A DNA stretch of 64,000 nucleotides from an uncultured Nitrospirota bacterium (GCA_937139405.1 CAKZPV010000033.1:186001-250000); one strand, 5' to 3'. Counted from the stretch's first letter, positions 933 through 47,058 are shown. Notes: generated from the letters alone by a model not told the origin. Translations and numbers: made by a program.

Positions 933-1712
933 ATGAAACGTGGTGCTGTGACAGCTGCTCTGGAAAAGCCCAAGACGGTGCTTCCAACGAAACTTTCGCT
1001 GAACAATCAAGAGCGCGAAAACCTCATTAAAGAATTCTTGCCGGTTATCAAATACATGGCCATGCGGTTGGCCATGCGGGTCTCGAGTGGGCTCAATGTC
1101 GAAGATCTGATGAGCGCAGGAATGGTGGGCCTCCTCGATGCGTTGACGAAGTTTGATCCTTCACGAGAAATTAAATTTCGTACTTATGCTGAATTTCGTA
1201 TTCGTGGCGCCATGCTTGATGAAATACGAGCCATGGATTGGGTCCCACGTTCTCTTCGCGAACGCATTGGGAAAATTCATCATGCCGCAAATGAATGGAC
1301 GAAGCGTAAAGGTCGTCCACCGACAGAAGCCGAATTAGCGGAATCTCTCGGTATGGAACCACAAGAAGTGGATGAGACACTCTTGCAAGCCAAAGGGGCG
1401 GTCGTATTGAGTTTGGATGATTTAGGGAGTAACGATGAAGATGCTCATCCTATTTTAGATGCTTTGGCCGACCGTGATCAGCCCAATCCGTTGGAATCGT
1501 TGGTGTCGGAAGATGCGCGTCGAGCCTTAGTCGACGCGATCGAGCGCTTGCCTGAACGCCAACGGTTGGTCTTAACCTTATACTATTTTGAAGAACTGAC
1601 CATGAAAGAAATCGGGGTCATTCTTCATGTGACAGAATCTCGTATCTGTCAACTGCATGCCCAGTCCATGGTTCGCTTGAAAGCACTTCTCCATTCTCGC
1701 CTTTCAAGATAA
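933..1712 (+). CDS. fliA: Flagellar sigma factor sigma-28
   Basis: Sigma-70 family factor of the FliA group, 259 aa, the usual length. It directs RNA polymerase to late flagellar and chemotaxis promoters and is held inactive by FlgM until the hook is complete. Region 2 spans roughly residues 35-105 (GLNVEDLMSAGMVGLLDA and the FRTYAEFRIRGAMLDE stretch). Region 3 follows (WVPRSLRERI), and region 4 with its helix-turn-helix ends the protein (LPERQRLVLTLYYFEELTM). It begins 3 nt after the flhG stop, so the two are co-transcribed. Its antagonist FlgM is encoded here at 42298, and candidate target promoters are listed separately. Confidence 0.95.
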   Translation: MKRGAVTAALEKPKTVLPTKLSLNNQERENLIKEFLPVIKYMAMRLAMRVSSGLNVEDLMSAGMVGLLDALTKFDPSREIKFRTYAEFRIRGAMLDEIRAMDWVPRSLRERIGKIHHAANEWTKRKGRPPTEAELAESLGMEPQEVDETLLQAKGAVVLSLDDLGSNDEDAHPILDALADRDQPNPLESLVSEDARRALVDAIERLPERQRLVLTLYYFEELTMKEIGVILHVTESRICQLHAQSMVRLKALLHSRLSR

Positions 1713-1822
1713 ATGAAGAAGTCAGGAGTGAATAGCAAGGAGTCAATTGTGAGCAGACAAATTAGTTGTATTGTTCTTCTTACACTTTTCTCTTGACCCA
1801 CAGTCTTTATTCCTGATTGTTT
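1713..1822. repeat. Intergenic heptamer-derived inverted repeat, copy 1
   Basis: Directly after fliA is a purine-rich arm (about 1716-1758) built of degenerate 7-nt units such as AGTCAGG and AGTGAAT in exact 7-nt phase. A pyrimidine-rich arm (about 1773-1820) reads as its approximate inverse complement. The same organisation recurs in many other gaps of this window. It could fold into a long imperfect hairpin; its function is unknown. Confidence 0.6.
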
Positions 1823-1912
1823 TCGCCATACCTTCCTCATTTTTTCTCTTGAGTTTCAAGGTAAATAAACCGAAAAAGAGCAAGTCGTATTTTATATGCC
1901 CAAGGTCCTGTC

Positions 1913-3157
1913 TTGAATGTTATTGAATCAGAGCAAGCTGTTGAACTGGTGAGGAAGGCGAGTCGACTTTCAGAGCCTAGCTATACCATCTTGCTGGTCG
2001 ATGATGAAAAATTGGTGCGAATGGTGGCCAAACGACGTCTGAGTAAATTGCAGCATCGGATGCTAGAGGCAGAAAATGGTAAGGAAGCCTTGGCAATTCT
2101 TGAACGGGAAAAGGTGGATTTAATTATAGCCGATTGGATGATGCCCGAACTGGATGGTCCTGGATTATGTGAAACGATAAAAAAGGACAATCGTTATCGA
2201 GCAATTCATTGTATTCTCATGACGGCCTTAGATCAGCCTGCGCAAATTGCTGAAGGACTCACTCGTGGGGCTGATGACTTTTTGACAAAATCGGCATCCG
2301 ATCAAGAAATTCTTGCGCGAGTGAGTGCGGGACTTCGCTCACGACAATTATTATTAGATCTTGAAGAATCCTATCATGTAATCGAAGAAAAACAGACGCA
2401 GCTTGAAAATGAATTGCACGCAGCATCGGGATTTGTGCGATCGCTATTGCCCGCGCCAGGAGAGGTGGCGCCTGGAATACAGTTGGAATGGGAATTCCTT
2501 CCGTCGGCACAGTTGGGTGGTGATTTATTTCAAGTCGAACAATGGGGAGATGATCACCTGGGCATTATGGTGCTGGATATGTCTGGGCATGGTACGGGAC
2601 CTGCGCTTCGAGCGGTCTCTCTGTCCATGTGGTTTAAAGGAGAGCATATTACGCAGCTTTTTCCGGATTTCGACCCTGGCAAAATCGTGACCCGGTTGAA
2701 CGCCGAAAATCCGCTGACGGATCAGGGGGAGTATTTCACGATTTGGGTGGGTGTACTTCAGCTCTCAACTCGTGAACTGCGTTTTTCCAGCGCAGGGCAT
2801 CCTGCTTCAATTTTACTCAGAAAAGATGCGTCGACTGAAATTTTAGGAAAGAAATCGTGGCCAACGGGATTTTCTCCTGACGAAATCTATCAGACCCAAT
2901 CCGTCACACTCACCGAACAGGATCGACTGTATTTATTCAGTGATGGAATTTATGAGGTGCTCAGTGCGCAAGAAGAAATTTTTGGGAAAGACCGTTTACA
3001 GGAGGCGCTTGAAAAGGATTTCACACGTCCGATGAAGTTCAGTCTCCAAAGACTCATTCATACGGGTCGTTCTTGGCAGAAAGATGGCGTTTTTGAAGAT
3101 GATGTCGCCGTGATCGGTTTAGAGCTCAAATCGAAAACCTCAGTGCACTATTCATGA
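1913..3157 (+). CDS. Response regulator with PP2C-type (RsbU/SpoIIE) serine phosphatase output
   Basis: Receiver domain at about residues 25-140 with phosphoacceptor D74 (ADWMMPELDG) and acidic pocket VDDE, a coiled linker, then a PP2C/SpoIIE phosphatase domain at about 195-405. Metal-binding motifs are visible: GGDLF, DMSGHG and DDVAVI near the end. Such proteins dephosphorylate a STAS anti-anti-sigma protein when the receiver is phosphorylated. The start used is TTG at 1913; no in-frame ATG fits better. It overlaps the REC-HATPase gene by 4 nt, and a STAS gene follows, giving phosphatase, kinase and substrate of a partner-switching module. The nearest described parallel is HsbR of Pseudomonas aeruginosa, where the two outputs sit on one polypeptide. 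The target here is inferred. Confidence 0.85.
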   Translation: MNVIESEQAVELVRKASRLSEPSYTILLVDDEKLVRMVAKRRLSKLQHRMLEAENGKEALAILEREKVDLIIADWMMPELDGPGLCETIKKDNRYRAIHCILMTALDQPAQIAEGLTRGADDFLTKSASDQEILARVSAGLRSRQLLLDLEESYHVIEEKQTQLENELHAASGFVRSLLPAPGEVAPGIQLEWEFLPSAQLGGDLFQVEQWGDDHLGIMVLDMSGHGTGPALRAVSLSMWFKGEHITQLFPDFDPGKIVTRLNAENPLTDQGEYFTIWVGVLQLSTRELRFSSAGHPASILLRKDASTEILGKKSWPTGFSPDEIYQTQSVTLTEQDRLYLFSDGIYEVLSAQEEIFGKDRLQEALEKDFTRPMKFSLQRLIHTGRSWQKDGVFEDDVAVIGLELKSKTSVHYS

Positions 3158-4107
3158 AAAAGAAGCAACCACGAATCCTAATTGTCGATGATGATGACTT
3201 GAACATGGACGTATTAGTTGAATGTCTAAGGGATGAGCCTTATGACCTGGTTCAGGCACATGATGGGGCTCAAGCCTTGACACTCCTACGGAACGATCAC
3301 CAAGAGTTTGATGCAATGATTCTGGATCGCATGATGCCTGGATTGACGGGGCTCGACGTCATGATGGAATTGAAGGCGGATGAACAATTTAAATGGATAC
3401 CAGTAGTCATGCAGACGTCTGCGGCCTCGCCCAACGAAATTTGCGAGGGTATGGAAGCGGGGGTATTTTTTTATCTCACGAAGCCGTATGAGCAACAGGT
3501 GTTAATTCGCTTGGTGCATGCAGCTCTTGAGGAAGGACTGAAATGGAAGAGCCTTGCGCATAACCTCGAGGTTCAGGGCAAGACTCTTGGTTGTTTGCAA
3601 CAAGGACGATTTCGTGTGCAGACGATGGACGAGGCCTATGACCTTGCGTTGTTAATTGCGCAAGCCTGTCCGAATTCAGAGAAAGTAGCCTTTGGTCTTA
3701 ACGAATTAATTGTTAACGGCATTGAACATGGAAATTTGCGCATTGGTTACGATGAAAAAACCATGCTTCAACAAACCGATCAATGGGAAGATGAATTAGC
3801 TCGTCGTCAATTATTACCTGAGTATGCTGACACATTCGTAGAAATCATCTTTGAACGCCATGCGGAAAAGATCCAAGTGACCGTGATCGATCAAGGTCTT
3901 GGATTTAATTGGAGCGAGTATGAGGAAATCAAAGCCGACCGAATGCTAGAAAGTCATGGAAGGGGAATCGCCATGGCCAAAGCGTTGAGCTTTGATTCCT
4001 TGGAATATCAAGGAATTGGCAATCAAGTTGTTTGTCACGTGAATATAGCTGAGCAGGTTCCTGCACACCCCACCAGACGTCAGGGATTGGTCAGGGAAGA
4101 ACGGTAA
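3154..4107 (+). CDS. Response regulator with HATPase (RsbW-like switch kinase) output
   Basis: An N-terminal receiver (residues 1-125, D58 in MILDRMMPG) is joined to a GHKL ATPase domain at about 150-300. The N-box is NELIVNGIEHG and the G-box region is VIDQGLGFNW. There is no dimerisation/His box, so this is not a classical histidine kinase. It resembles anti-sigma serine kinases of the RsbW/SpoIIAB type that phosphorylate STAS proteins. An ATGA overlap with the upstream REC-PP2C gene shows translational coupling and suggests opposing activities on the same STAS partner (4580 or 19540). Its receiver could switch the kinase by phosphorelay from the CheA or hybrid kinases nearby; that link is inferred. 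Confidence 0.8.
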   Translation: MKKKQPRILIVDDDDLNMDVLVECLRDEPYDLVQAHDGAQALTLLRNDHQEFDAMILDRMMPGLTGLDVMMELKADEQFKWIPVVMQTSAASPNEICEGMEAGVFFYLTKPYEQQVLIRLVHAALEEGLKWKSLAHNLEVQGKTLGCLQQGRFRVQTMDEAYDLALLIAQACPNSEKVAFGLNELIVNGIEHGNLRIGYDEKTMLQQTDQWEDELARRQLLPEYADTFVEIIFERHAEKIQVTVIDQGLGFNWSEYEEIKADRMLESHGRGIAMAKALSFDSLEYQGIGNQVVCHVNIAEQVPAHPTRRQGLVREER

Positions 4108-4579
4108 GCCCATTCCCGGTGTTCTCTTAACGGTTCGGGTGGATGACGATCTCGAGAAGTTTTCTCCGTAGAATCAGGTTTGACTTTACGTTACGGACTT
4201 TTCCTGTCGTTGATGCACTCCAGATCCATTCCAATGCTATTGAGGACATCTTAGAGATCAACGTTCAGATTCAAATGCAAATCGATTACCCTGTCCATCA
4301 GAGAAAAGTAGATCCAGGGATGAGAGAGGCGCCAAAACCTGCCCATATGGCTGTTGGGCGCACCATGTTTGTTGGGAGGATGAGTAATTGAATGTGCAGG
4401 AGAACATTTATGAAATTCTCAAGTCCATATAAAGATCTCCCGATATTTTCACTTATCTGGGTGGATTGGACGACTCGTGCTGTTTGTGATGTGAGGCAAG
4501 ATAGAGGTCTGAGATTCCTTAGCTCTAAGGAATAATTTTCTATGAAAATGTAAGTCGCACTAAGAAAACGAGGAAAAAC
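4108..4579. other. Gene-free stretch with one short hairpin
   Basis: This 472-bp gap holds no convincing gene. An open frame of 82 codons at 4143-4391 lacks a ribosome binding site and any recognisable domain. The only clear structure is a perfect inverted repeat at 4514-4533 (arms ATTCCTTA and TAAGGAAT, 4-nt loop). It is followed by a weak T-run, 47 bp before the STAS gene, and may be a weak terminator or a leader hairpin. Confidence 0.4.
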
Positions 4580-4882
4580 ATGAAAGAAAAAGAAGCCGAG
4601 AAAGTGCTTCCTCCTGATTCTATTTTGAAGCCCATTGGTGATCTGAGCATTTTTGAAGCGGGCCAGTTTCATGAAGATCTTCTTTCTCTTCTTCAGCAAG
4701 AGGGTCCAGTGGAATTGAACTTATCAGAGGTCGATCGCATGGATTCTTCAAGCATACAGTTGATTGTTGCAGCGACACGCTCTGGCCGGCTGAAATTACA
4801 CGGGTATTCATCGCAAATACGAGATCGATTCGAACAAATTGGTTTTGCTCAGTTTCTTTCAACGGAAGAAGGGGCATCTTAA
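4580..4882 (+). CDS. STAS-domain protein (anti-anti-sigma / HsbA-like)
   Basis: Single STAS domain, 100 aa, with the typical strand-loop-helix segment VDRMDSSSIQLIVAA. The serine of the DSS motif (around residue 58) is the usual phosphorylation site in SpoIIAA/RsbV-type proteins. It is a good candidate substrate for the REC-HATPase kinase and REC-PP2C phosphatase encoded just upstream. In Pseudomonas the comparable HsbA binds FlgM. Here a direct link to FlgM/FliA is a hypothesis; an alternative is a scaffold role with the receptor and CheA downstream. Its TAA stop overlaps the ATG of a tiny frame (TAATG) that leads into the receptor gene. Confidence 0.75.
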   Translation: MKEKEAEKVLPPDSILKPIGDLSIFEAGQFHEDLLSLLQQEGPVELNLSEVDRMDSSSIQLIVAATRSGRLKLHGYSSQIRDRFEQIGFAQFLSTEEGAS

Positions 4883-4947
4883 TGCCTGCAATGGGTCGCA
4901 AGAAATTTTTGAGTGGTGAGACTTCAAGAAAACGAGGTGATGAGTAA
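4882..4947 (+). CDS. Possible 21-codon coupling ORF
   Basis: A 21-codon frame (begins MPAMGRKKF, rich in Lys/Arg) exactly fills the gap between the STAS gene and the receptor gene. Its ATG overlaps the STAS stop as TAATG, and its own TAA overlaps the receptor ATG as TAATG. No domain can be recognised. The double overlap suggests a translational-coupling micro-ORF, but chance is possible because the gap is short. Confidence 0.3.
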
Positions 4948-6080
4948 TGATTGATTGGATGATCGGGAGTGTTTTCTTAATTATCGGAGCAATAGGGGGA
5001 TATATCCTTGGACGTCGATCCGGAGAATCTCGTATTGCTGATCTTGAACAAGAAGCGCGAAATTTAGCGATGGGGTTGGCCAATGCTCAGCAATATTGGA
5101 AAGACTTTTGCGGGTGCCTGACTCCGATATTTCCCGTCTTCGTGGGGCAATTAAAAGCGGTTATTCAGGAAACGGAACAAGCCGCCTCTGGATTGATTCA
5201 GCGGTTTCAAAAAATTTCTCAACAGGCTCGAGAATCAGCGTCTGAGACGGAAACCATTCTCTCGATGAGTGAAAAAGGAGAGGGAGAGGGGATGACGGTA
5301 GAGCGCATTCTCAATGATACGAAAGACACTATGAAAATGTTTGTGGATCAAGTCACCCAAACCGCGACTGTCACGGTCTCCACGGTAACCGTTATGGAAG
5401 AGGCTCTTGATACAACTTCTCGAATTTCCGAGGTCGTCGAAGAAGTTGAATTTATCGCTGATCAGACTCGGTTGTTAGCGTTGAACGCTGCGATCGAAGC
5501 AGCTCGAGCAGGTGAACATGGTCGTGGATTTGCGGTGGTTGCAGATGAAGTGACCAAGTTGGCCAATCGATCAGGACAAGCTGCTGAACAAATTCGAGCT
5601 TTGGCTACAGCAGTGAAGGCAACAACCGAATCCGCTATGTCTGAATTGCAAGTTCTTGCTGCCTTGGATTTAAGCTCAACGTTACTGGCTCAACAAAACA
5701 TTATGGCTATGACCGAGGTCATGGTCGCAAAGAATGCCGCCCTCAAGGAAAGTGTCGGACAAAATTCTGGACGGGCCAAAGAGCTCGGTGACGATATTGG
5801 ACAGATTGTGATGTCCATGCAGTTTCAGGATATTACTCGACAGAAATTAGAACATGTGTATCAACCTCTTGAACGCATTTACGCATCGTTACAGCCGGTA
5901 GTCGAAAATACTGGAAGAACCCATATGTTGCCCAATATCATCGAAGAACTGCGCAACCTGGAACATGGTTCTAGCATGGAATCGGAACGCCTGACGATCG
6001 AGGCCGCGCAAACTGGGGAAGCGGCGGTCCTGGTAGGAACTGGCAGAACTGAGGATGGCGAAAATGTCACGTTGTTCTAA
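4947..6080 (+). CDS. Short membrane-anchored chemoreceptor with CheZ-like FQD...Q motif
   Basis: 377 aa. One N-terminal membrane segment (about residues 5-22) is followed directly by a cytoplasmic coiled coil. There is no periplasmic sensor and no recognisable HAMP. The hairpin tip matches methyl-accepting receptors ([20 protein letters not shown]), although the usual QTNLL reads QTRLL. After the descending helix the sequence [11 protein letters not shown] places D295 and Q299 in the same DxxxQ spacing as the catalytic D143/Q147 of CheZ. It lies just upstream of cheY and cheA of system 1, which has no separate CheZ gene. It may act as a signalling scaffold or as a receptor with CheY-P phosphatase activity; the latter is inference from the motif. 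Confidence 0.8.
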
Positions 6081-6198
6081 TAGCTGTGAGACGAGAAAAG
6101 ATGTCGCCTGACTCTTTACGAAAGATCCGCTTTTGAATTAACGAAAATGATTCAAGTGAGACGATATTCAAGTAACCCGATAAAAGAGAGGGAAAATC

Positions 6199-6570
6199 AT
6201 GGGCAAGACCGTACTCGTAGTTGATGATTCCGTTTCCATGCGGCAAATGGTGAGTTTTACTCTCACTGGAGCTGGGTATGAAGTGGTAGAAGCTGGTGAT
6301 GGAAAAGAAGCTGTCGATAAATTGAACGGTGGGGCCAAACCTAATCTGGTGATTACGGATTTGAATATGCCCAACATGGATGGTATTTCGCTTATTAAAG
6401 CGATCAGAGGAATGGCCCCTTATAAGTTTACTCCAATCTTGATGCTTACGACGGAGTCATCGGATGATAAAAAGAAAGAGGGACAAGGTGCCGGAGCCAC
6501 TGGTTGGGTCATCAAGCCCTTCAATCCTGAGCAAATGCTCGCCACCATTAAAAAAGTGATGCCCGGGTGA
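6199..6570 (+). CDS. cheY: Chemotaxis response regulator CheY (system 1)
   Basis: Stand-alone receiver of 123 aa with acidic pair D9/D10, phosphoacceptor D54 (VITDLNMPNMDG), the conserved Thr in MLTTES and Lys in VIKPFNPE. As CheY-P it binds the flagellar switch. It lies between the short CheZ-motif receptor and cheA, 45 bp upstream of the latter, so CheA1 is its natural kinase. Its sequence differs clearly from the second CheY at 25314 (no N-terminal extension, different alpha-4 region), suggesting separate system membership. It has a good ribosome binding site (GAGAGGG) before the ATG. Confidence 0.93.
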   Translation: MGKTVLVVDDSVSMRQMVSFTLTGAGYEVVEAGDGKEAVDKLNGGAKPNLVITDLNMPNMDGISLIKAIRGMAPYKFTPILMLTTESSDDKKKEGQGAGATGWVIKPFNPEQMLATIKKVMPG

Positions 6571-9566: not shown

Positions 9567-11759
9567 ATGAACAATGTATTACGTAAATTTCTGAGTTGGG
9601 GTATTGCCGCTAAGTTAGTCACGATTTTTGTCATTTTTGGGGCAGTCCCCATGACTGCCGTTGGTCTCATTGCCTTCGGGGCCGCCGATGATATGAAAAC
9701 CAAAATTGGTGGAAGATTCATGGCGGAAGCCGCTGGGTTAGCCGATAAAATTGATCGTAATCTTTTTGAACGTTATGGCGACGTTCAAGCCTTCGGTTTT
9801 AACGATGCCATCACGCGTACCTCGCAATGGTATGACGATTCGGAATATAACGTCGTCAGCCAAGTCATGAATAAATATGTTGTTGCCTATGGAATTTATG
9901 ATTTGTCCTTGTTAGTAGATCCTGTTGGCGATTTGATCGCGGTGAATTTTCAAAACGCACAAGGTGAGCCGATTGATGTGAAATGGTTGTTTAAAAAGAA
10001 CTTTAAGGAAACGGCCTGGTTTAAAGCTTTGGAAGCGGGGGAATTCACGACGAAAATGCCGTTCACGGCGGCAGGGAACGATATTTCCTCCGGCACGTAT
10101 ATTGAGGATGTACATTTTGATGAAGATGTGAAGCACGCGTTGGGCAATGATGGGTTGGTGATGGGCTTTTCGGCGCCAGTCTATGATGAGAATGGAAACG
10201 TGGTGGCCTATTGGTCTAATCGTACGAACTTTACTGTGGTAGAGCAAATGTTCCAATACTCCTATGCCTCCTTGAAAGAGGGCGGTTTCCCAGGGGCAGA
10301 ATTAACGTTGCTGGACAGCAAAGGCCGAGTGCTTGTGGACTATGATCCTTCAGTCTCAGGAACGACCAATGTCGTACGTAATTATGAAATTCTCGGTCAA
10401 TTAAATCTAGTTGAAAAGGGTGTTGCAGTAGCTCAAGCAGCGGTCAGGGGCGAATCGGGATTTTCAACTGCCATGCACATACGAAAACAGATTAATCAAG
10501 TGGGAGGCTATGTGCATTTAGAGGGTGCCTTAGGTTTTCCGGGTATGAATTGGTCAGTGTTAGTAAGGGTCCCTGAAAAAGAAGCCGCCGCTGAAGCTAA
10601 TGCGATCCAAAATAAAGTCCTCATGACTGGAATTATTTGTCTGGCTCTGTTGATCCCCTTGGGTTGGTGGGTTGGCCGCAAAGGGGCCAGAAGTTTAGTG
10701 GCCATCAGTACTGTGGCGCAACAAGCCGCCGATGGCGATCTCAGTCAACGGGCGTCGATTTCCAGTAAAGATGAATTAGGGCAATTAGGTCAGGCCATGA
10801 ACACCATGTTAGACAACATTGCCAACGTGGTGGGCGAAGTGCGACAAGCCGCCGAGCATGTCTCCACTGGGTCTGCGGAAATCAGCCAGGGCAATGAGGA
10901 TCTCTCGCAACGGACTTCGGCCCAGGCGGGGGCGTTAGAAGAAACCAGTGCTTCGATGGAAGAGATGACTTCGACCATCAAACAAAATGCCGATAATGCC
11001 AAGCAGGCGAATCAATTGGCTGTCACCGCGCGAGAAGTGGCTGAGAAGGGTGGTGCGGTCACAGATAAAGCCGTCAACGCCATGGATGAAATCAACAAGA
11101 GTAGTAAGAAAATTGCGGATATCATTAACGTGATTGATGAGATTGCCTTCCAAACGAATCTCTTGGCATTAAATGCGGCCGTAGAAGCTGCGCGGGCGGG
11201 CGAACAAGGTAGAGGGTTTGCCGTGGTGGCCTCGGAAGTGCGCAATCTCGCGCAACGTTCAGCGACGGCGGCCAAAGAAATTAAGACCTTGATCAATGAA
11301 TCGGTGCAAAAGGTGGGCGACGGCAGTGATTTGGTGAATAAATCAGGGCAAACGTTGGAAGAAATCGTTAATTCGGTCAAACGGGTCACGGACATTATTG
11401 CCGAGATCAGTGCGGCGTCCCAGGAGCAGGCCAGTGGGATCGATCAAGTCAATAAAGCGGTCATGCAAATGGATCAAGGGACCCAACAAAATGCGGCGTT
11501 AGTGGAACAGGCGACTTCAGCCTCGCAATCCATGAAACAGCAAGCCGGTGCGTTACTGGACCAAGTGGCGTTTTTCAAGGTAGCCGAAGGCCGTTCGGGC
11601 TTCAGTGCCCAAGGGGCCATGCGGCCACAGACTGAGGCCAAACCGATAAACGTCTCGACGAAGACACCGATCAAAGCGATTCCCCAACCGGTGGGCGGTG
11701 GTAGCAGTAATGGGCATCAATCATCCAAAGGAGATGATGATTTCTTCGAAGAATTTTAG
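9567..11759 (+). CDS. Methyl-accepting chemoreceptor with dCache-like periplasmic sensor
   Basis: 730 aa from the preferred ATG at 9567, which has GAAGGA 10 nt upstream; an in-frame ATG at 9549 lacks a good site. Membrane segments lie at about 16-39 and 350-372, bracketing a roughly 310-residue periplasmic domain with double-Cache character. HAMP (373-425) and a methyl-accepting signalling domain follow, with hairpin tip [20 protein letters not shown] around 527-546. The ligand is unknown. The C-terminus ends in a Gly/Ser linker and the tail DDDFFEEF, which fits the aromatic-x-x-aromatic CheR/CheB tether pattern. Bases 10947-11542 are identical to 12808-13403 in the next receptor gene. Confidence 0.93.
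10947..11542 (+). repeat. 596-bp direct repeat, copy A (receptor signalling domain)
   Basis: This segment, encoding most of the cytoplasmic hairpin, reads base for base the same as 12808-13403. It is bounded by mismatches at 10946/12807 (C versus T) and 11543/13404 (A versus G). Sensor domains on either side of the block are unrelated, so a recent gene-conversion event or selected domain swap is likely. Confidence 0.9.
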
Positions 11760-11853: not shown

Positions 11854-13659
11854 ATGAGTACGGGACCACAAGGAAAGTGGAATGAATTGGGGATTGGCCC
11901 AAAAGTTATTGTGAGCACGTTGCTTGTTTTTGCGGGACTTTTACTAGCTGGAGCCTATTTTCTTGGACAGCAACTACAAGCAGACCTGAATCGGGTCTTA
12001 GCCACGCAGGCTTCGATCATTGAAAAACAGATTCAAGTCACGCGGGCTTATGTGGCCAAACAATTTGTGGTCAAAGCCAAAGGTGCGGGGATGAAGGTCA
12101 GTATGGACCATGATGCCTCTGACACCATTCCATTTCCTGCAACCTTTACTCGTGAAACGTCCGAAGCTCTGGCGAAAGATGGCGTCTATAATGCACGTGT
12201 GATTAGTGCGACTCCGTTGAATAACGCTAACGCACCTCAAGATAGTTTTGAACAGCAAGCTCTTGAAGCTCTTACAACGGGGCAAACAGAATTTACAAGT
12301 ATCGAATCTGTGAATGGGGGCATGATGTTTCGAAGGGCCACTGCAGATTTTGCCAGTGTCCAAGCCTGTGTGTCATGTCATGCCGGCAAACAGGTCGGTG
12401 ACATGCTGGGGGCGGTGTCCGTGCAAATTCCAATGGACATTCCCATGGCACAACTCAATAGCAATTTGAATAGCATGTATATGGGAATTCTAGTCGTTGG
12501 AATAGTTACGATGGTGATGTTGTTCATTTTGCTTTCAAAATTCGTCGTCAGGCCGATGAAAAATTTAGAAGCCATGGCTGCCAGAGCCAAAGACGGAGAT
12601 CTGACGGTTCGGACCACAGTTGTGAGTCGGGATGAAATTGGACGAACCGGTGAATCCTTTAATGCGATGTTTGATCAGGTGGGTGATGTTGTCCAGTCAG
12701 TAAAATTAGCCGCTGGCGGGATTACAACAGGAACAATCGAAATTTCTCAAGGCAATGAAGATCTCTCGCAACGGACTTCGGCTCAGGCGGGGGCGTTAGA
12801 AGAAACTAGTGCTTCGATGGAAGAGATGACTTCGACCATCAAACAAAATGCCGATAATGCCAAGCAGGCGAATCAATTGGCTGTCACCGCGCGAGAAGTG
12901 GCTGAGAAGGGTGGTGCGGTCACAGATAAAGCCGTCAACGCCATGGATGAAATCAACAAGAGTAGTAAGAAAATTGCGGATATCATTAACGTGATTGATG
13001 AGATTGCCTTCCAAACGAATCTCTTGGCATTAAATGCGGCCGTAGAAGCTGCGCGGGCGGGCGAACAAGGTAGAGGGTTTGCCGTGGTGGCCTCGGAAGT
13101 GCGCAATCTCGCGCAACGTTCAGCGACGGCGGCCAAAGAAATTAAGACCTTGATCAATGAATCGGTGCAAAAGGTGGGCGACGGCAGTGATTTGGTGAAT
13201 AAATCAGGGCAAACGTTGGAAGAAATCGTTAATTCGGTCAAACGGGTCACGGACATTATTGCCGAGATCAGTGCGGCGTCCCAGGAGCAGGCCAGTGGGA
13301 TCGATCAAGTCAATAAAGCGGTCATGCAAATGGATCAAGGGACCCAACAAAATGCGGCGTTAGTGGAACAGGCGACTTCAGCCTCGCAATCCATGAAACA
13401 GCAGGCTCAAGATCTGTTACAACAAGTAGAATTCTTTAAGACCAACCAAGAACAATCTGGAAATGGCAGTCGTGTGGTGATCAGTTCAAGCCGGACTTCC
13501 AGCTCTTCGCTGTCCGTGTCCAAACCTGTGAGTTCGTCACCCAAGTCATCCAGCTCTGTGAAGCCAGCTCCTAATTCGCCAATATCAAGAGTTGGTGTCG
13601 GAAGTAGCAATGGGCACAGTTCCTCAAAAGGAGATGATGACTTTTTTGAAGAATTTTAG
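11854..13659 (+). CDS. Chemoreceptor with Tll0287-like (DUF3365) c-type haem sensor
   Basis: 601 aa. A membrane segment at about 17-39 is followed by a periplasmic Tll0287-like domain with a CxxCH haem-attachment motif (C172, C175, H176), a second membrane segment (208-232), HAMP and a methyl-accepting signalling domain. A Ser/Pro-rich linker of about 50 residues ends in the same DDDFFEEF tail as the preceding receptor. Proteins with this sensor bind haem covalently and are thought to report redox state or small gases; the exact stimulus here is unknown. It is followed by a stand-alone secreted protein of the same fold (13907). The signalling domain shares the 596-bp identical block with its neighbour. 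Confidence 0.9.
12808..13403 (+). repeat. 596-bp direct repeat, copy B (receptor signalling domain)
   Basis: Partner of 10947-11542 at a fixed offset of 1861 bp; no mismatch was found on reading the two side by side. Upstream of the block similarity continues with scattered third-position differences; downstream the sequences diverge until the shared C-terminal tail. Confidence 0.9.
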
Positions 13660-19539: not shown

Positions 19540-19893
19540 ATGAATATTACACAAGATACAGTTAATGGGAAGAATATTCTTCACTTGGATGGACGATTTG
19601 ATTTTGGTGCGAGAAAAACTTTTAAAGAGGCCGTCGATCGGGTTGCTGAAGAGGGAAGTCCGGTTGTCTTAGACTTGGAAAACGTCGCGTTTGTGGATAG
19701 CTCAGCTTTAGGTCTACTTGTGATTTGCCATCAAAACCTTAAAAATAAGAACGTTTCCCTTTATTTGGTGAATCCGCAAACATATGTGAAGCAGGTCTTG
19801 GATTTAGCTAATATCGGAAAAATGATTCCAATCTATGAGACCTTGGCAGAACTTCCGAAAGGAAATCACATTCCTGCTGGCGCTCCTGTCTAG
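19540..19893 (+). CDS. STAS-domain anti-sigma factor antagonist (SpoIIAA/RsbV type)
   Basis: 117 aa single STAS domain with the canonical phosphorylation-site segment AFVDSSALGLLVI (serine around residue 57) and the C-terminal helix of the fold. It is closer to classical SpoIIAA/RsbV proteins than the STAS protein at 4580. It could be the alternative substrate of the REC-HATPase and REC-PP2C pair encoded at 1913-4107. It stands alone between a PilZ gene and an HD-GYP gene, with its own strong ribosome site (AAAGGAG) and a candidate sigma-28 promoter, suggesting late flagellar expression. Confidence 0.88.
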   Translation: MNITQDTVNGKNILHLDGRFDFGARKTFKEAVDRVAEEGSPVVLDLENVAFVDSSALGLLVICHQNLKNKNVSLYLVNPQTYVKQVLDLANIGKMIPIYETLAELPKGNHIPAGAPV

Positions 19894-20025: not shown

Positions 20026-21345
20026 ATGCCCAGTCGGTCTGAGTCCACAGTTACTCCTTCGAATAGTTCCCTTCAACGTATTTCTACTAGTCAATTACGA
20101 CCCGGTATGTTTCTGGTTCGGGTCCTTGATTCGTGGTGGAAGTCTCCCTTCTTTGTCCATCGGCGTTTGCTGAATTCTCCTACTGACGTTCAACAACTTA
20201 TGAGTTCCGGTATTCGAGAAGTAGAAATCGATACGTCTTTGGGTGTGAAGATATCAGGTCTAGTCTCTGAGGGAGGTATGACAGACGAGACTGAAAACCA
20301 GACCATCACTTGTAATCATAATGATTCTAGCGCGGATGAACCCTTCGTTGCTTCCGTAAGTTTAGAATCTTCCCTGGATTCCGAACCCTGCTCACAGGAG
20401 TCAAAAAACCGAGAAGAAGTCGTTCAATTGCGTGATGCGGCAATCGCCGCGATGGAAGGCGCTTTTGAAGGGGTGAAGTCTGGTCAACCTCTTTCTCAAC
20501 CGACAATTCATGGCGCAGCGCAAGCTCTGGTTCAAAAAACGCTGGCGAATCCTTCCCTTGTTGCAGAAATCTTGCTGATCGATTCTCTGAAACAATGCGA
20601 TAAAACGCTCTATGCGCATGTCGTGGATACAGCTGTGTACTCCATTCTGGTCGGTCTGCAATTAGGATGGGATGAAGGGAAATTAGAGCGCGTAGGCGTT
20701 GCTGGATTATTGCACGATGTTGGATATATCCGTCTACCTCAGAATGTGGTGAAAGCCCATTGGGAGGGAAGACATGATGCCGTGTTGTTACAGAAACATG
20801 TCGTGATGGGTGAGACGTTAATGAAGCGTCAAACGGAATTTTCTGAAGATATTCTGCGAATGGTGAGAGAGCATCATGCCTATCAAGATGGGTCTGGGTA
20901 TCCTGAAGGAGAGGGGGGTGCCTTGCTTTCGGATTCAGGCCAACTCATAGGTATTGTGGATTACTTTGATGAATTAATCACAGTCGGCGGGCCTTCAGGA
21001 GCGATCCCCGTGGCTTTAGCCATTCGACGACTCTATCAAGAAGCGCAGAAGGGGAAATTCTCTACATTTTATATTGAAGCGATGATTCGAATAATGGGTG
21101 TGTTTCCTGTTGGCACGGTAGTGCAACTGTCCACAGGTGAGCAGGCCGTTGTTGTGAAACAACATCCAGAGTTCGGACTAAAACCTTTGGTGAAAATCTT
21201 TCGTAATTTACATGGCAAGATGCTTGATGAGCCACAGATTTGCGATTTAGCGAAGGATGCCAACTTGGGACATGATATGAGTGTTGCCAAAGTGTTGGAC
21301 CCCACAGAATATGTTCTCGATCTTCAGGAGTATTTTGAATCGTGA
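20026..21345 (+). CDS. HD-GYP c-di-GMP phosphodiesterase with DUF3391 N-terminus
   Basis: 439 aa. A DUF3391-like N-terminal region (RISTSQLRPGMFL to about 80) is followed by an HD-GYP hydrolase domain at about 170-350. Metal-binding signatures include H230-D231 in GLLHDVGYIRLP and the REHHAYQDGSGYP segment with G291-Y292-P293. This family hydrolyses c-di-GMP to pGpG or GMP. It overlaps the hybrid kinase gene downstream (stop TGA within GTGATG), so the two are translationally coupled and probably act in one pathway. Lowering c-di-GMP favours motility, consistent with its place in a flagellar cluster. Confidence 0.9.
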   Translation: MPSRSESTVTPSNSSLQRISTSQLRPGMFLVRVLDSWWKSPFFVHRRLLNSPTDVQQLMSSGIREVEIDTSLGVKISGLVSEGGMTDETENQTITCNHNDSSADEPFVASVSLESSLDSEPCSQESKNREEVVQLRDAAIAAMEGAFEGVKSGQPLSQPTIHGAAQALVQKTLANPSLVAEILLIDSLKQCDKTLYAHVVDTAVYSILVGLQLGWDEGKLERVGVAGLLHDVGYIRLPQNVVKAHWEGRHDAVLLQKHVVMGETLMKRQTEFSEDILRMVREHHAYQDGSGYPEGEGGALLSDSGQLIGIVDYFDELITVGGPSGAIPVALAIRRLYQEAQKGKFSTFYIEAMIRIMGVFPVGTVVQLSTGEQAVVVKQHPEFGLKPLVKIFRNLHGKMLDEPQICDLAKDANLGHDMSVAKVLDPTEYVLDLQEYFES

Positions 21346-24308
21346 TGTGGAGTAACCCAGCTCTTCTCCAAGTGCTATGGGATGGCCTTATGGTCGGTGC
21401 TTGTGTGGTTGATGATGAGGGGCTAGTGACACAAATGAATGTTGCGGGCTCGCGTCTTTTAGGTTGGGGTGCGATCTGCCCAACCAAGATTTTTTTTGAG
21501 GAAGTGTTTGATCGTTCTGCCCTTGGGGAGGATGAGTTACCAACGGGGCAGTCGCTTTTGGATAGACTTAAGGAAAAAAAGATTGTCTGGTTCCCTAGGA
21601 TACGTCTGTGCTGTCGACAAGAAACATGGTCCTGGGTCGAACTCAAGGGCATAGCCGTTGAAGATGGCGAAAGGATTCAATTCCTCTTTCTGTTTCGGGA
21701 TCTTAGCTCGGAAGCTCAATTAACAGAGGAATTTAGTCGGTTAGCTTCTATTCCAGAAGAAAGTCCTTTTCCCATTATTGAGATTGATGCAGTAGGACAT
21801 TTGTTGTATGCCAACCCTTCCATGGTGCGTTTAATGGAAGACGCGCAGATCGGTGAAGATGGATTTACCACAGCCCTGCCAGATCATTTTCCAGACCTAG
21901 CCACCCGATGTTTTGCTCAAGGACATCTAGAATCCAACATTGAAGTGCGAGTGGGCGAGAAACATTATTCTTGGTCTTTTTCCTCTCATCCCGAACTTGG
22001 ACGTCTTCGCGGCTATGGCATAGATATTACTGATTCAAAGCTGGCTTCCGCTGAATTGTCAGCATTTGCAGAGACGTTGGAATACAAAAACCAGGAATTG
22101 GATCAAGCTTTGATGAAGGCCGAAGCCGCCACTCGAGCAAAGGCCGCGTTTCTTGCCACCATGAGTCATGAAATTCGGACACCTCTCAATGGTGTGATTG
22201 GGATGGCTGAGCTACTGTTGAATTCGACTTTGGATGTGGAACAGCAGGAATGCACGAAGATTATTCGAAAGTCGGGTGAAGGGTTACTGTCAATTATTAA
22301 TGACATTTTAGATTTTTCGAAAATTGAATCTGGCCATATGGCATTAGAAACAATTGGCTTTAATCCTTTGGTGCTCGTCGAAGAAGTCTTGGATTTGTTT
22401 TCTGAACGAGCCTTTCAGAAGAGATTGGATTTGGCCGCCTATGTGTCACCCACGGTTCCTTCAAATCTTTTAGGTGATCCGCATCGGTTGCGACAAATTT
22501 TGTGTAATTTTGTTTCAAATGCCCTCAAATTTACGAGTCATGGTTCTGTGCTGATCGAAGTCGCATGGCTCCCTGTTTGTGAGAAAACAGTCATTGTTGC
22601 TGACGTAACGCGCACTGGACCCTATGGGTCGGCATCGGATGGCCACATGCGTTTTACCGTGAGAGATACGGGGATTGGAATATCTCAGTCTGTTCAAGGG
22701 AAAATCTTTCAAGTCTTCACGCAAGCCGATAGTTCTATGAGTAGGAAATTTGGTGGATCAGGATTGGGCTTGGCGATTTGTAAACAATTGGCAGAACTGA
22801 TGAATGGAACCGTCGGAGTTGAGAGTCAGATGGGAATTGGGACAGCCTTTTGGTGCGACCTTCCTTTCTTGCTTTCCTCGATGTCTGTGGATATGCCAGT
22901 TGAGCCGACATTAAGTAATCATCAAGATATTCTCGTGTGCTCTATGTCGGATGCTTCGACAGACGTCCTGTCTCGCTATTTGAACGATCGGGGTATGCGG
23001 GTAGTCCGAGTTGAGCACGTAAGGGACGCGGTGGAATTTTTAGAACATAAACAACCCTCCGTTTCTGATGTGTTGGGAGTCATTATGGGGCGAGAAGCGA
23101 GCGATGAAGCCTGGCGATCATGGCTCAAGGCTGTGCGGTCATCTTTCCTCACGAATGTAAAAATATGGAATTTGACACCTTTTTGGTTGCGGAATGGCAT
23201 GGCAGACTCATCTTTCACATTTGATGATGTGATTACATTACCCATTCATCGCGAGCAATTGTATAACACGTTGTTTCATTCATTGAATGGGCTTGTGGAC
23301 AAGAATGTGATTGATAAAGAGGAAGAGTGTGATATTTCACAGTGTGATTCAGAACAGGTCCATGCTGAACATTGGTCTCAAGGCGACAATCATCATGATG
23401 AAAAATTAGGTCCTTCAATCTTGATTGTTGACGATAATCCAGTCAATCAAAAAGTTGCTGCTGGGTTATTCAGGAAATTGGGTTGCGAGGTCTATGTTGC
23501 TGAATCAGGGAATCAGGCACTGAGTCTAGTTCAAGAACATCCGGTCGATGTCGTGATGATGGATTGGGAAATACCTGGGATGGATGGTTTTGACACAGCT
23601 CGAGCTATTCGAGAATTAGAAAATGCGCATCGCCTGAAACCGAGGAGTTTGTTACATCACAATCCAGATGAAGCAAAGGCTCTTCCTTGCGCACGTCTTC
23701 CCATTGTAGGCATGACGGCTCACGGGCATTCTGATCGGAATCCCTCTCGTTGGGAACAGGTGATGGATGATTGTATAGGCAAACCTTTTCATTTGCAGGA
23801 TTTGGCTCACGTCCTTGAGCGATGGGTTGGGTATGGGGTTCGAGCTGGAGTGTCACACCTTTCATCAGGGAAGGCTTGTTTACAGAAGAATTTGAACATG
23901 GATCACACCGTTCAACCTCTGACGGTGGTGCATGACGTGGAAGACCAGCAGGCACTGTGTGAGCTCTACGATTATTCGGCAGTCCTGGAGAGCTTGGCAG
24001 GCGATGAAGCCTTGTTACATTCGCTCTTTGAAATTTTTCTGGAAACTGGCCCTCGTGTAATAAAGAGCTTAGGAGAAGCCATTGTTTCCGAGAATCGGCA
24101 AGAAGTCCAACGTCATATACATCAATTGAAAGGTTCGTTATTTGCCTTAAACGCCTCTCGCCAGGCCGCCGTCGCAGAGCGGCTTGAAGTCGAAGCGTCT
24201 GTGGCCTTGTTTGCGGTGCTTCAACATGAATTTGAAGAAATGGAACATGAGATGAAAGCATTATCCACATTATTTAGGAAAATACTGTTAGAAAGTAGAA
24301 AGAAGTGA
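21345..24308 (+). CDS. Hybrid sensor histidine kinase (PAS-PAS-HisKA-HATPase-REC-Hpt)
   Basis: 987 aa. Two PAS-like regions (about 5-120 and 125-235) precede a HisKA box with the phospho-accepting His near residue 275 (TMSHEIRTPLNG). A HATPase with GGSGLGLAICKQL follows, then a receiver-like region without the usual Asp (about 530-640). A functional receiver has Asp near 740 (VVMMDWEIPGMDG), and an Hpt domain has His near 926 (HIHQLKGSLFALN). No membrane segment is visible, so it is probably cytoplasmic. It may pass phosphate via its Hpt to a stand-alone regulator such as the REC-PP2C or REC-HATPase proteins. ATG at 21345 is used; GTG at 21342 is possible. It is coupled to the HD-GYP gene. 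Confidence 0.9.
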   Translation: MWSNPALLQVLWDGLMVGACVVDDEGLVTQMNVAGSRLLGWGAICPTKIFFEEVFDRSALGEDELPTGQSLLDRLKEKKIVWFPRIRLCCRQETWSWVELKGIAVEDGERIQFLFLFRDLSSEAQLTEEFSRLASIPEESPFPIIEIDAVGHLLYANPSMVRLMEDAQIGEDGFTTALPDHFPDLATRCFAQGHLESNIEVRVGEKHYSWSFSSHPELGRLRGYGIDITDSKLASAELSAFAETLEYKNQELDQALMKAEAATRAKAAFLATMSHEIRTPLNGVIGMAELLLNSTLDVEQQECTKIIRKSGEGLLSIINDILDFSKIESGHMALETIGFNPLVLVEEVLDLFSERAFQKRLDLAAYVSPTVPSNLLGDPHRLRQILCNFVSNALKFTSHGSVLIEVAWLPVCEKTVIVADVTRTGPYGSASDGHMRFTVRDTGIGISQSVQGKIFQVFTQADSSMSRKFGGSGLGLAICKQLAELMNGTVGVESQMGIGTAFWCDLPFLLSSMSVDMPVEPTLSNHQDILVCSMSDASTDVLSRYLNDRGMRVVRVEHVRDAVEFLEHKQPSVSDVLGVIMGREASDEAWRSWLKAVRSSFLTNVKIWNLTPFWLRNGMADSSFTFDDVITLPIHREQLYNTLFHSLNGLVDKNVIDKEEECDISQCDSEQVHAEHWSQGDNHHDEKLGPSILIVDDNPVNQKVAAGLFRKLGCEVYVAESGNQALSLVQEHPVDVVMMDWEIPGMDGFDTARAIRELENAHRLKPRSLLHHNPDEAKALPCARLPIVGMTAHGHSDRNPSRWEQVMDDCIGKPFHLQDLAHVLERWVGYGVRAGVSHLSSGKACLQKNLNMDHTVQPLTVVHDVEDQQALCELYDYSAVLESLAGDEALLHSLFEIFLETGPRVIKSLGEAIVSENRQEVQRHIHQLKGSLFALNASRQAAVAERLEVEASVALFAVLQHEFEEMEHEMKALSTLFRKILLESRKK

Positions 24309-42297: not shown

Positions 42298-42612
42298 ATG
42301 ACAATACCGGGCCTTGATCCCAGTGGAGAGCTGGGAAGACTCTTTTTTCAAGTTCAATCCAAATCCAATGATGAGAAAGATGTTCGTCAGACCAAACCGG
42401 TTCCTCAAGGATCTACCGATGCGGTAGATCTGTCTCGATTAGCACAGGAGATTCGCACGCATTCTACGCGTGCAGCGGAACTGCCAGATCTTCGAACAGG
42501 TAAGGTTGAACGTATTCAGCAGGCATTGACACTAGGCGTGGAATTGGCAACGCCAGGGCAGTTGGCTGATGCCATTGCTCGAGAGACCATTCTCAATGCC
42601 TTGGGTTCCTAA
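42298..42612 (+). CDS. flgM: Anti-sigma-28 factor FlgM
   Basis: 104 aa. The C-terminal half carries the FliA-binding helices (DAVDLSRLAQEIRT, LRTGKVERIQQALTLG, ADAIARETILNALG), and the N-terminal half is disordered-looking, as expected for a secreted FlgM. It inhibits FliA (933) until exported through the finished hook. A sigma-28 promoter just upstream gives feedback control. It may also be a target of the STAS partner-switch at 1913-4882 by analogy with HsbA. Confidence 0.9.
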   Translation: MTIPGLDPSGELGRLFFQVQSKSNDEKDVRQTKPVPQGSTDAVDLSRLAQEIRTHSTRAAELPDLRTGKVERIQQALTLGVELATPGQLADAIARETILNALGS

Positions 42613-46086: not shown

Positions 46087-47058
46087 ATGAAAATTCTTGT
46101 TGTTGATGATGATCCGTTAACGCTACATATGGTGGTCTACCGATTGCGCCAATGGGGGCATGAAGTGGTTTCGTGTACGGACGGAGCTTCTGCTTGGAAA
46201 ATTCTCGAGGGTGGGATGGTACCTAACGTCGCCATCCTAGATTGGATGATGCCTGGTATCAATGGGCCTGACCTTTGTCAAAAAATTCGTTCTAGAATGG
46301 ACTGCCCATATGTCTATATTGTCTTGTTAACGGGAAGAAATAATCCCGAAGATTTGATTGTTGGCCTGGATGCAGGAGCTGATGACTATCTCACAAAACC
46401 GTTTCATTTAGGCGAGTTGGAAGCACGATTGCGAGCGGGGAAACGCATTGTGGATTTGCAAAACGAATTGATATCGGCTCGAGAAACCCTGCGGATTCAA
46501 GCGATGCAAGATCCCTTGACGCAAATTCTCAATCATGGGGCGATATTGGATGCTCTTTTGAACGAAATTAACCGCGCGCAGCGCGAGCATCAACCCTTAA
46601 GCCTTATTCTTGCTGATCTTGATGCGTTTAAAAACGTGAATGATACGTATGGCCATGTTGCGGGTGATCAAGTGCTCATTGAAGTGGCAAGACGCATGCG
46701 CAATTGTTTGCGGTCTTATGATGCTATCGGACGCTATGGTGGAGAAGAATTTTTAGTGGTCTTACCGAATAGCGATGATTCGCAAGCCAAGGGTCTGGCT
46801 GAACGCATTCGGTTGGCCATTTCCTCGGAACCGTTTCGATTCTACCAGGTCGATTTGACGGTCACCGTCAGCCAAGGGGTGACAACCTGGACTGATCCGG
46901 ACTCGATTCCCATCGAACGGTTGATTCAGTCGGCTGATCGTGCTTTGTATGGAGTGAAACATAGTGGCCGAAATGCTGTTCAGCATGTGCAATTCGACTC
47001 TGAAGCTGAAGAGGCTTTTACCCCAATCTTTGTGTCGCCAATTTCCAGCGAATCATAA
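46087..47058 (+). CDS. Response regulator diguanylate cyclase (REC-GGDEF)
   Basis: 323 aa. The receiver carries D52 (AILDWMMPGING) and conserved Lys in DDYLTKPFH. The GGDEF domain has an intact active site GGEEF at 218-222. Five residues upstream is RSYD (209-212), a complete inhibitory I-site for c-di-GMP feedback. It makes c-di-GMP when phosphorylated. Two bp separate it from the next hybrid kinase, which has a final receiver and may also feed it, so kinase and cyclase form a pair. Placed between flgL and fliW, it ties c-di-GMP to filament assembly by location only. Confidence 0.92.
   Translation: MKILVVDDDPLTLHMVVYRLRQWGHEVVSCTDGASAWKILEGGMVPNVAILDWMMPGINGPDLCQKIRSRMDCPYVYIVLLTGRNNPEDLIVGLDAGADDYLTKPFHLGELEARLRAGKRIVDLQNELISARETLRIQAMQDPLTQILNHGAILDALLNEINRAQREHQPLSLILADLDAFKNVNDTYGHVAGDQVLIEVARRMRNCLRSYDAIGRYGGEEFLVVLPNSDDSQAKGLAERIRLAISSEPFRFYQVDLTVTVSQGVTTWTDPDSIPIERLIQSADRALYGVKHSGRNAVQHVQFDSEAEEAFTPIFVSPISSES

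Follow-up and report, generated by a model that had tools for sequence, protein, structure and literature searches.

We analyzed a predicted partner switch encoded between flagellar and chemotaxis genes of an uncultured Nitrospirota bacterium, in a 64,000-nucleotide stretch of DNA (GCA_937139405.1 CAKZPV010000033.1:186001-250000, here called the window) that is part of contig C33 of the 4.46-Mb source genome. The nearest named relatives of this genome (G000) are Nitrospirales metagenome-assembled genomes (MAGs); its contigs are given C-numbers, the genomes compared with it G-numbers, and loci L-numbers. All of the evidence was comparative and was drawn from sequence, gene order, and predicted structure. 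The genes named in this paragraph are on the plus strand. The sigma-28 gene fliA (933-1712; TIGR02479, 262.9 bits against a cut-off of 189.6) is followed by a gene for a predicted REC-PP2C phosphatase of the SpoIIE type (1913-3157, TTG start uncertain; Pfam Response_reg, 4.9e-25, and SpoIIE, 1.9e-34) and by one for REC-HATPase, which is of the RsbW/SpoIIAB/LvrC type and is predicted from Pfam and its structural model to be a serine kinase or anti-sigma factor (3154-4107; Response_reg, 9.2e-23, and HATPase_c_2, 1.5e-7). The two genes overlap in the four nucleotides ATGA at 3154-3157, which hold the stop codon of REC-PP2C and the start codon of REC-HATPase. A 473-bp gap that contains the remnant of another gene separates the kinase gene from that of STAS1 (4580-4882; STAS_2, 2.4e-11; STAS, 3e-10), which heads the che operon and is followed by the gene for a methyl-accepting chemotaxis protein (MCP)-like protein (4947-6080; MCPsignal, 8e-27). 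Another STAS protein, STAS2, is encoded at 19540-19893 (STAS, 6.3e-23), and a hybrid histidine kinase with a terminal Hpt domain at 21342-24308 (HisKA, HATPase_c, Response_reg, Hpt).

Both receivers are complete, with two acidic residues, the phospho-acceptor Asp, Thr, and Lys (D,D,D,T,K); REC-PP2C has the full set of PP2C metal ligands and REC-HATPase has complete N, G1, and G2 boxes. A sequence-only reading of this DNA had described a phosphatase and a kinase overlapping by 4 nucleotides and a STAS protein between fliA and the chemotaxis genes, with the two activities on separate polypeptides that each carry a receiver, and a second STAS protein at 19540; the domain matches, the intact residues, and the overlap confirmed all of this. 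Compared to three sister species, both enzymes had a ratio of nonsynonymous to synonymous substitution rates (dN/dS) of about 0.1, with dS near saturation, which indicates that both are under constraint. Matches to FliA-type promoters with at most 2 mismatches numbered 5 in the window against 4.95 expected by chance, none of them at the switch genes, and scans of 1600-6200 for sigma-70 promoters and terminators gave nothing above chance.

Orthologs of REC-PP2C were found in 70 of 296 sampled Nitrospirota genomes, many of the compared genomes being MAGs and possibly incomplete, and all 70 belonged either to the family of the source genome (f1) or to its sister family in the same order, Nitrospirales (f2). 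When 49 f1 genomes were surveyed, 29 had the ortholog, and those lacking it were mostly from one genus with small genomes. The order fliA, REC-PP2C, and directly REC-HATPase was read in 22 f1 genomes, followed in most of them by STAS1 and then by the MCP-like protein, CheY, CheA, and CheW. The three-gene order next to fliA, for which a survey across Nitrospirota had been proposed, was conserved in most of these 22 f1 genomes; in the f2 loci read, the cassette is not at fliA. A STAS gene sits between the two enzyme genes in G301, and STAS genes in or beside the enzyme cassette were also present in G317, G318, G320, G310, and G189. Five relatives (G137, G241, G206, G304, and G301) encode a protein matching the hybrid kinase between REC-HATPase and STAS1, which in G137 is a PAS-HisKA-HATPase protein. 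In four relatives the receiver of the phosphatase is damaged: Asn stands in place of both acidic residues in G191 and G316 and of one in G311, and G322 has Glu for Asp. These changes suggest that two working inputs are dispensable in some relatives; the kinase receiver was intact wherever REC-HATPase was present among the f1 relatives. At the place behind STAS1 where relatives have CheY-CheA, G153 encodes a large kinase-like protein, a REC-HATPase, and a protein resembling a hybrid kinase (L314:6188-14976). The enzyme pair is genuine and ancient, and it is linked to the chemotaxis genes.

In 15 of the 18 f2 loci read, a cassette with the order STAS(-STAS)-REC/PP2C-Hpt-REC/HATPase lies within the che cluster, 3' of CheB in most loci and 3' of MotB in G245 and G141, and the cassettes read stand at the far (che) end, away from fliA. 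Domain assignments were confirmed with Pfam for STAS, Hpt, and REC-HATPase in G055, for Hpt in G088, and for REC-HATPase in G110; the remaining f2 Hpt genes were called from similarity or an HxLKG motif. The same che end in G189 has the order HATPase-STAS-STAS-PP2C. The phosphatase-adjacent STAS proteins of f2 and G189 retain D-S at the phosphosite, and f1 STAS2, whose gene is 3' of a CheR-CheD-CheB run, retains D-S-S-A. The STAS2 proteins of G137 and G307 scored clearly higher against STASb and the G189 STAS, the PP2C-adjacent lineage, than against STASa. These results suggest that the f2 phosphatase-adjacent STAS corresponds to STAS2, which would make STAS2 the best candidate for the inherited substrate of the enzyme pair, and that the pair may have moved from one end of the cluster to the other, in either direction, its f1 position being the end next to fliA. 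Several observations weigh against an inherited pairing with STAS2. The STAS2 of the source genome scored equally against STASa and STASb, and its gene is 15 kb away from the enzymes. The f1 kinase lineage differs from that of the f2 cassette kinase, a comparison to be read with caution in view of long branches, and the trees of short STAS sequences (about 117 columns) are poorly resolved. Finally, almost every STAS1 of f1, the family in which the enzymes are its neighbors, carries Ser, as would be expected if STAS1 were the substrate.

On balance, we consider it fairly probable that che-cluster STAS proteins, STAS2 first and STAS1 perhaps too, are phosphorylated on Ser by the kinase and dephosphorylated by the phosphatase, each enzyme being gated by its receiver. 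The two genes would then supply the enzymes of a split partner switch with two receivers that belongs to the Nitrospirales chemotaxis supercluster. REC-HATPase would phosphorylate an RsbV/HsbA-type STAS protein on its serine, REC-PP2C would take the phosphate off, and the activity of each enzyme would be set by phosphorylation of its receiver, through either a histidine kinase or a relay with Hpt. STAS2 would be the inherited substrate, and STAS1 may have been recruited as a further one in f1, where the pair adjoins it. The weakest parts of this scheme are the phosphodonor, for which the Hpt-ending hybrid kinase at 21342 and CheA (6616) are candidates, and the final target, which need not be FlgM. 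Since a histidine-kinase-like gene lies between the kinase and STAS1 in five relatives and the f2 cassette has a single Hpt gene between phosphatase and kinase, one phosphorelay may feed both receivers, in place of the two independent inputs suggested by the sequence-only reading.

STAS1 relatives were detected by alignment search in 95 of the 296 Nitrospirota genomes, the weaker ones outside the order possibly being other STAS proteins. In 24 f2 loci (L237-L260), STAS1 heads an MCP-like protein-CheY-CheA run, mostly 3' of MotA-MotB, and no PP2C or HATPase gene adjoins it in any of these loci. In the tree, STAS1 formed a clade separate (100/100) from the RsbV-like STAS proteins of the source genome and its relatives. 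At the position following the conserved Asp, the STAS1 proteins of f1 almost all carry Ser, with Thr in G269; those of f2 mostly carry Thr, with Ala in 7 loci and Gly in 1. The Ala and Gly phosphosites indicate that STAS1 is not the phosphorylated partner in several f2 genomes, and because Ser is almost confined to the family with adjoining enzymes, STAS1 could have become a phosphorylated partner later, in f1. The natural STAS partner of the enzymes is probably a protein other than the neighboring STAS1. The sequence-only reading had treated the STAS protein at 4580 as the equivalent of HsbA, and by descent this is not supported, given its separate che-operon clade and the 8 f2 loci with Ala or Gly.

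The competing explanations overlap, and their probabilities are not required to sum to one. A tentative alternative is that STAS1 is the main substrate in f1 and that the switch acts on the chemotaxis machinery (the MCP-like protein, CheY, and CheA) and not on a sigma factor. STAS1 lies 3' of the enzymes in most f1 genomes, its phosphosite is Ser in nearly all of them but Thr, Ala, or Gly in f2, and its structural model was closest to RsbV in the RsbV/RsbW complex 6m36, all of which would fit such a role. However, STAS1 is in the che operon even where the enzymes are not adjacent, the G269 protein has Thr despite adjoining enzymes, the f1 Ser may be a single ancestral change, and other STAS genes are nearer to the kinase in several relatives. 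That the receiver-gated enzymes set STAS1 phosphorylation and that STAS1 in turn targets the MCP-like protein or the signaling complex of CheA, and not a sigma factor, seems unlikely. The MCP-like protein encoded behind STAS1 ends in QFQDITRQ, which we take to resemble the D-x-T-x-Q phosphatase motif of CheZ, and it may be a CheY-P phosphatase-like protein. Several of its f2 orthologs are only about 165 to 185 amino acids long, and the G189 ortholog (L147:328-825) keeps the QFQDITRQ part while the MCP signaling domain is apparently absent.

The remnant between the kinase and STAS1 genes was traced to a different STAS protein. A 414-amino-acid STAS-HDOD fusion is encoded directly 3' of REC-HATPase in G317 (L120:4921-6165), and related forms were found in four other genomes: a STAS-HDOD gene with one in-frame stop in G318, separate STAS and HDOD genes in G310, where Arg replaces the phosphosite Ser, STAS alone behind the kinase in G320, and a decayed HDOD in G319. 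The gap in the source genome holds 105 bp of the 3' end of such a gene (4182-4286, plus strand), at the same place and on the same strand. It matched the G317 protein by tblastn (E 7e-7) and the G318 gene by blastn (82% over 77 bp, E 7e-18), and a chance match was ruled out by the latter E value together with position and strand. These gene contents indicate that STAS partners at the locus were gained or lost while the enzymes stayed, and the dN/dS values rule out that the enzymes began to decay once the STAS gene at the locus was lost. An intact 410-amino-acid STAS-HDOD gene exists elsewhere in the source genome (C31:90680-91909); its product is 57% identical to the G317 protein and falls in the same STAS clade. 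In both fusions, a STAS domain of the anti-anti-sigma type is joined to HDOD as the output domain. That the lost gene simply moved to C31 is disfavored, as the scar is nearer to the G318 locus copy (74% identity) than to the C31 gene (62%). It could be supposed that the kinase partner in this genus is STAS-HDOD and that the C31 copy serves in place of the lost gene, as the intact fusion behind the G317 kinase, the forms in the four other genomes, the scar, and the similarity of the C31 protein would suggest. We consider this improbable: the scar is closer to the G318 copy, the C31 phosphosite reads F-I-N-S-A without the usual Asp, G310 has Arg for Ser, and most f1 genomes have no such gene at the locus.

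The architecture of REC-HATPase allows a reading without a STAS substrate. The best Foldseek match to its AlphaFold model was LvrC of Leptospira (PDB 9qih), a REC-Bergerat response regulator with which it shares a REC domain followed by a Bergerat/HATPase fold and full-length similarity (phmmer, E 2e-11). LvrC is proposed to be an anti-sigma factor that sequesters a sigma factor, and the excerpt of that paper considered here mentions no PP2C or STAS partner (PMC13269768), unlike the enzyme pair described here. Separation of the kinase from the phosphatase was assessed in the best 80 relatives of REC-HATPase in named genomes, a sample picked by similarity to a split protein and thus biased toward the split. 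A fused PP2C was absent in 78 of the 80, a PP2C gene adjoined on the same strand in 27, and a STAS gene lay within 4 kb in only 6; in Azonexus and Zoogloea, the gene behind that of REC-HATPase encodes REC-PAS-PP2C. Separate enzymes are common, and splitting the two activities is not in itself new. Keyword searches of the literature for the split architecture returned nothing specific. The 74 relatives with no STAS gene within 4 kb would be consistent with an LvrC-like mode of action, in which REC-HATPase, gated by its receiver, would be an anti-sigma factor that itself binds a sigma factor, and STAS phosphorylation would matter little or not at all. This is doubtful, however, as a PP2C gene adjoins in those 27 relatives and in most PP2C-bearing f1 genomes. 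REC-HATPase also has the N-box Glu and Asn, which are typical of active SpoIIAB-type kinases.

Like the RsbU/RsbW/RsbV and SpoIIE/SpoIIAB/SpoIIAA switches, the system proposed here has PP2C phosphatase, HATPase kinase, and STAS domains, including the SpoIIE-type metal ligands and the HATPase_c_2 N, G1, and G2 boxes; unlike in those switches, both enzymes have receivers and no sigma-B- or sigma-F-type factor is encoded adjacent to them. REC-PP2C response regulators include RsbY of Bacillus cereus. REC-PP2C shares its architecture with RssB of Pseudomonas and matched NF045505 over 334 residues (1e-32), but at 113.7 bits it fell far below the equivalog cut-off of 700, and the kinase partner here additionally has a receiver.

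The HptB-HsbR-HsbA system of P. aeruginosa, with FlgM and HsbD, is also among the closest known systems. There, once HsbR is phosphorylated it removes the phosphate from HsbA, and HsbA then binds FlgM (PMC5085249, PMC6482189). The two systems are alike in receiver, PP2C, and HATPase activities that would act on a STAS protein, in STAS proteins in the cluster with a phosphorylatable Ser (MDSSSIQ in STAS1, FVDSSALG in STAS2), in the Hpt gene of the f2 cassette, and in their flagellar or chemotaxis location. They differ in that HsbR combines REC, PP2C, and HATPase in one protein while two proteins, each with a receiver, are found here; Hpt is a separate gene in the f2 cassettes and at the source-genome locus only a domain of the hybrid kinase; and the f2 cassettes mostly have two STAS genes. 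This likeness comes from domains and gene order, HsbR and HsbA being known from description and not from sequence comparison. The term split HsbR is apt as an analogy. New here is the f2 che-operon cassette as a split HptB/HsbR/HsbA-like set; a limited literature search found no description of a che cassette that includes Hpt and STAS genes. The source genome also encodes an unsplit REC-PP2C-HATPase (C4:106249-108320, L001) with a STAS gene of its own behind it, a layout nearer to HsbR-HsbA. Two other candidates were rejected by inspection: C4:417795, over the HATPase_c_2 cut-off, is part of an ordinary histidine kinase, and the third SpoIIE match, on C34, is a PP2C of another type without a receiver.

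The link to FlgM and FliA comes from gene position only. A FlgM-like anti-sigma-28 protein is encoded in the flagellar cluster of the window (42298-42612, plus strand; PF04316, a weak 26-27.5 bits), and a second, stronger one lies outside it (C3:91566-91727, L004; 60 bits). The model of the sequence-only reading, in which unphosphorylated STAS binds FlgM and so frees FliA as HsbA does, draws on the position of the enzymes beside fliA in f1, the binding of FlgM by HsbA in P. aeruginosa, and the two FlgM genes, but we rate it as very unlikely because the f2 cassettes are not at fliA in the loci read, and also against it are the distance of both FlgM genes from the STAS genes, a FliA-type promoter signal not above chance, and the action of HsbR on RpoS too (PMC5085249, PMC6482189), the source genome having about 14 sigma factors over the cut-off. 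Also in the flagellar cluster, 3' of a flgL-like gene, is a REC-GGDEF protein (46087-47058), for which a cyclic di-GMP link like that of HsbD in P. aeruginosa is possible by analogy. Two neighboring MCP genes contain an identical stretch (11012-11395 and 12873-13256), with antisense open reading frames for the same 127 residues, which suggests a recent duplication or conversion of their signaling halves.

The usual reading of a partner switch is that it controls a sigma factor; here the kinase and the phosphatase are separate response regulators, and across the order their genes lie within the chemotaxis operon or next to it. In a limited literature search, we found no paper joining Nitrospira, chemotaxis, and anti-sigma factor antagonists. 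Because the species compared differ in whether a STAS gene is present at the locus, the pairing of a given kinase with a STAS protein is directly testable. The position of the cassette, the kinase lineage, and the STAS partners vary between related genomes of an order that includes nitrifiers, among them Candidatus Nitrospira defluvii, which carries the f2 cassette.
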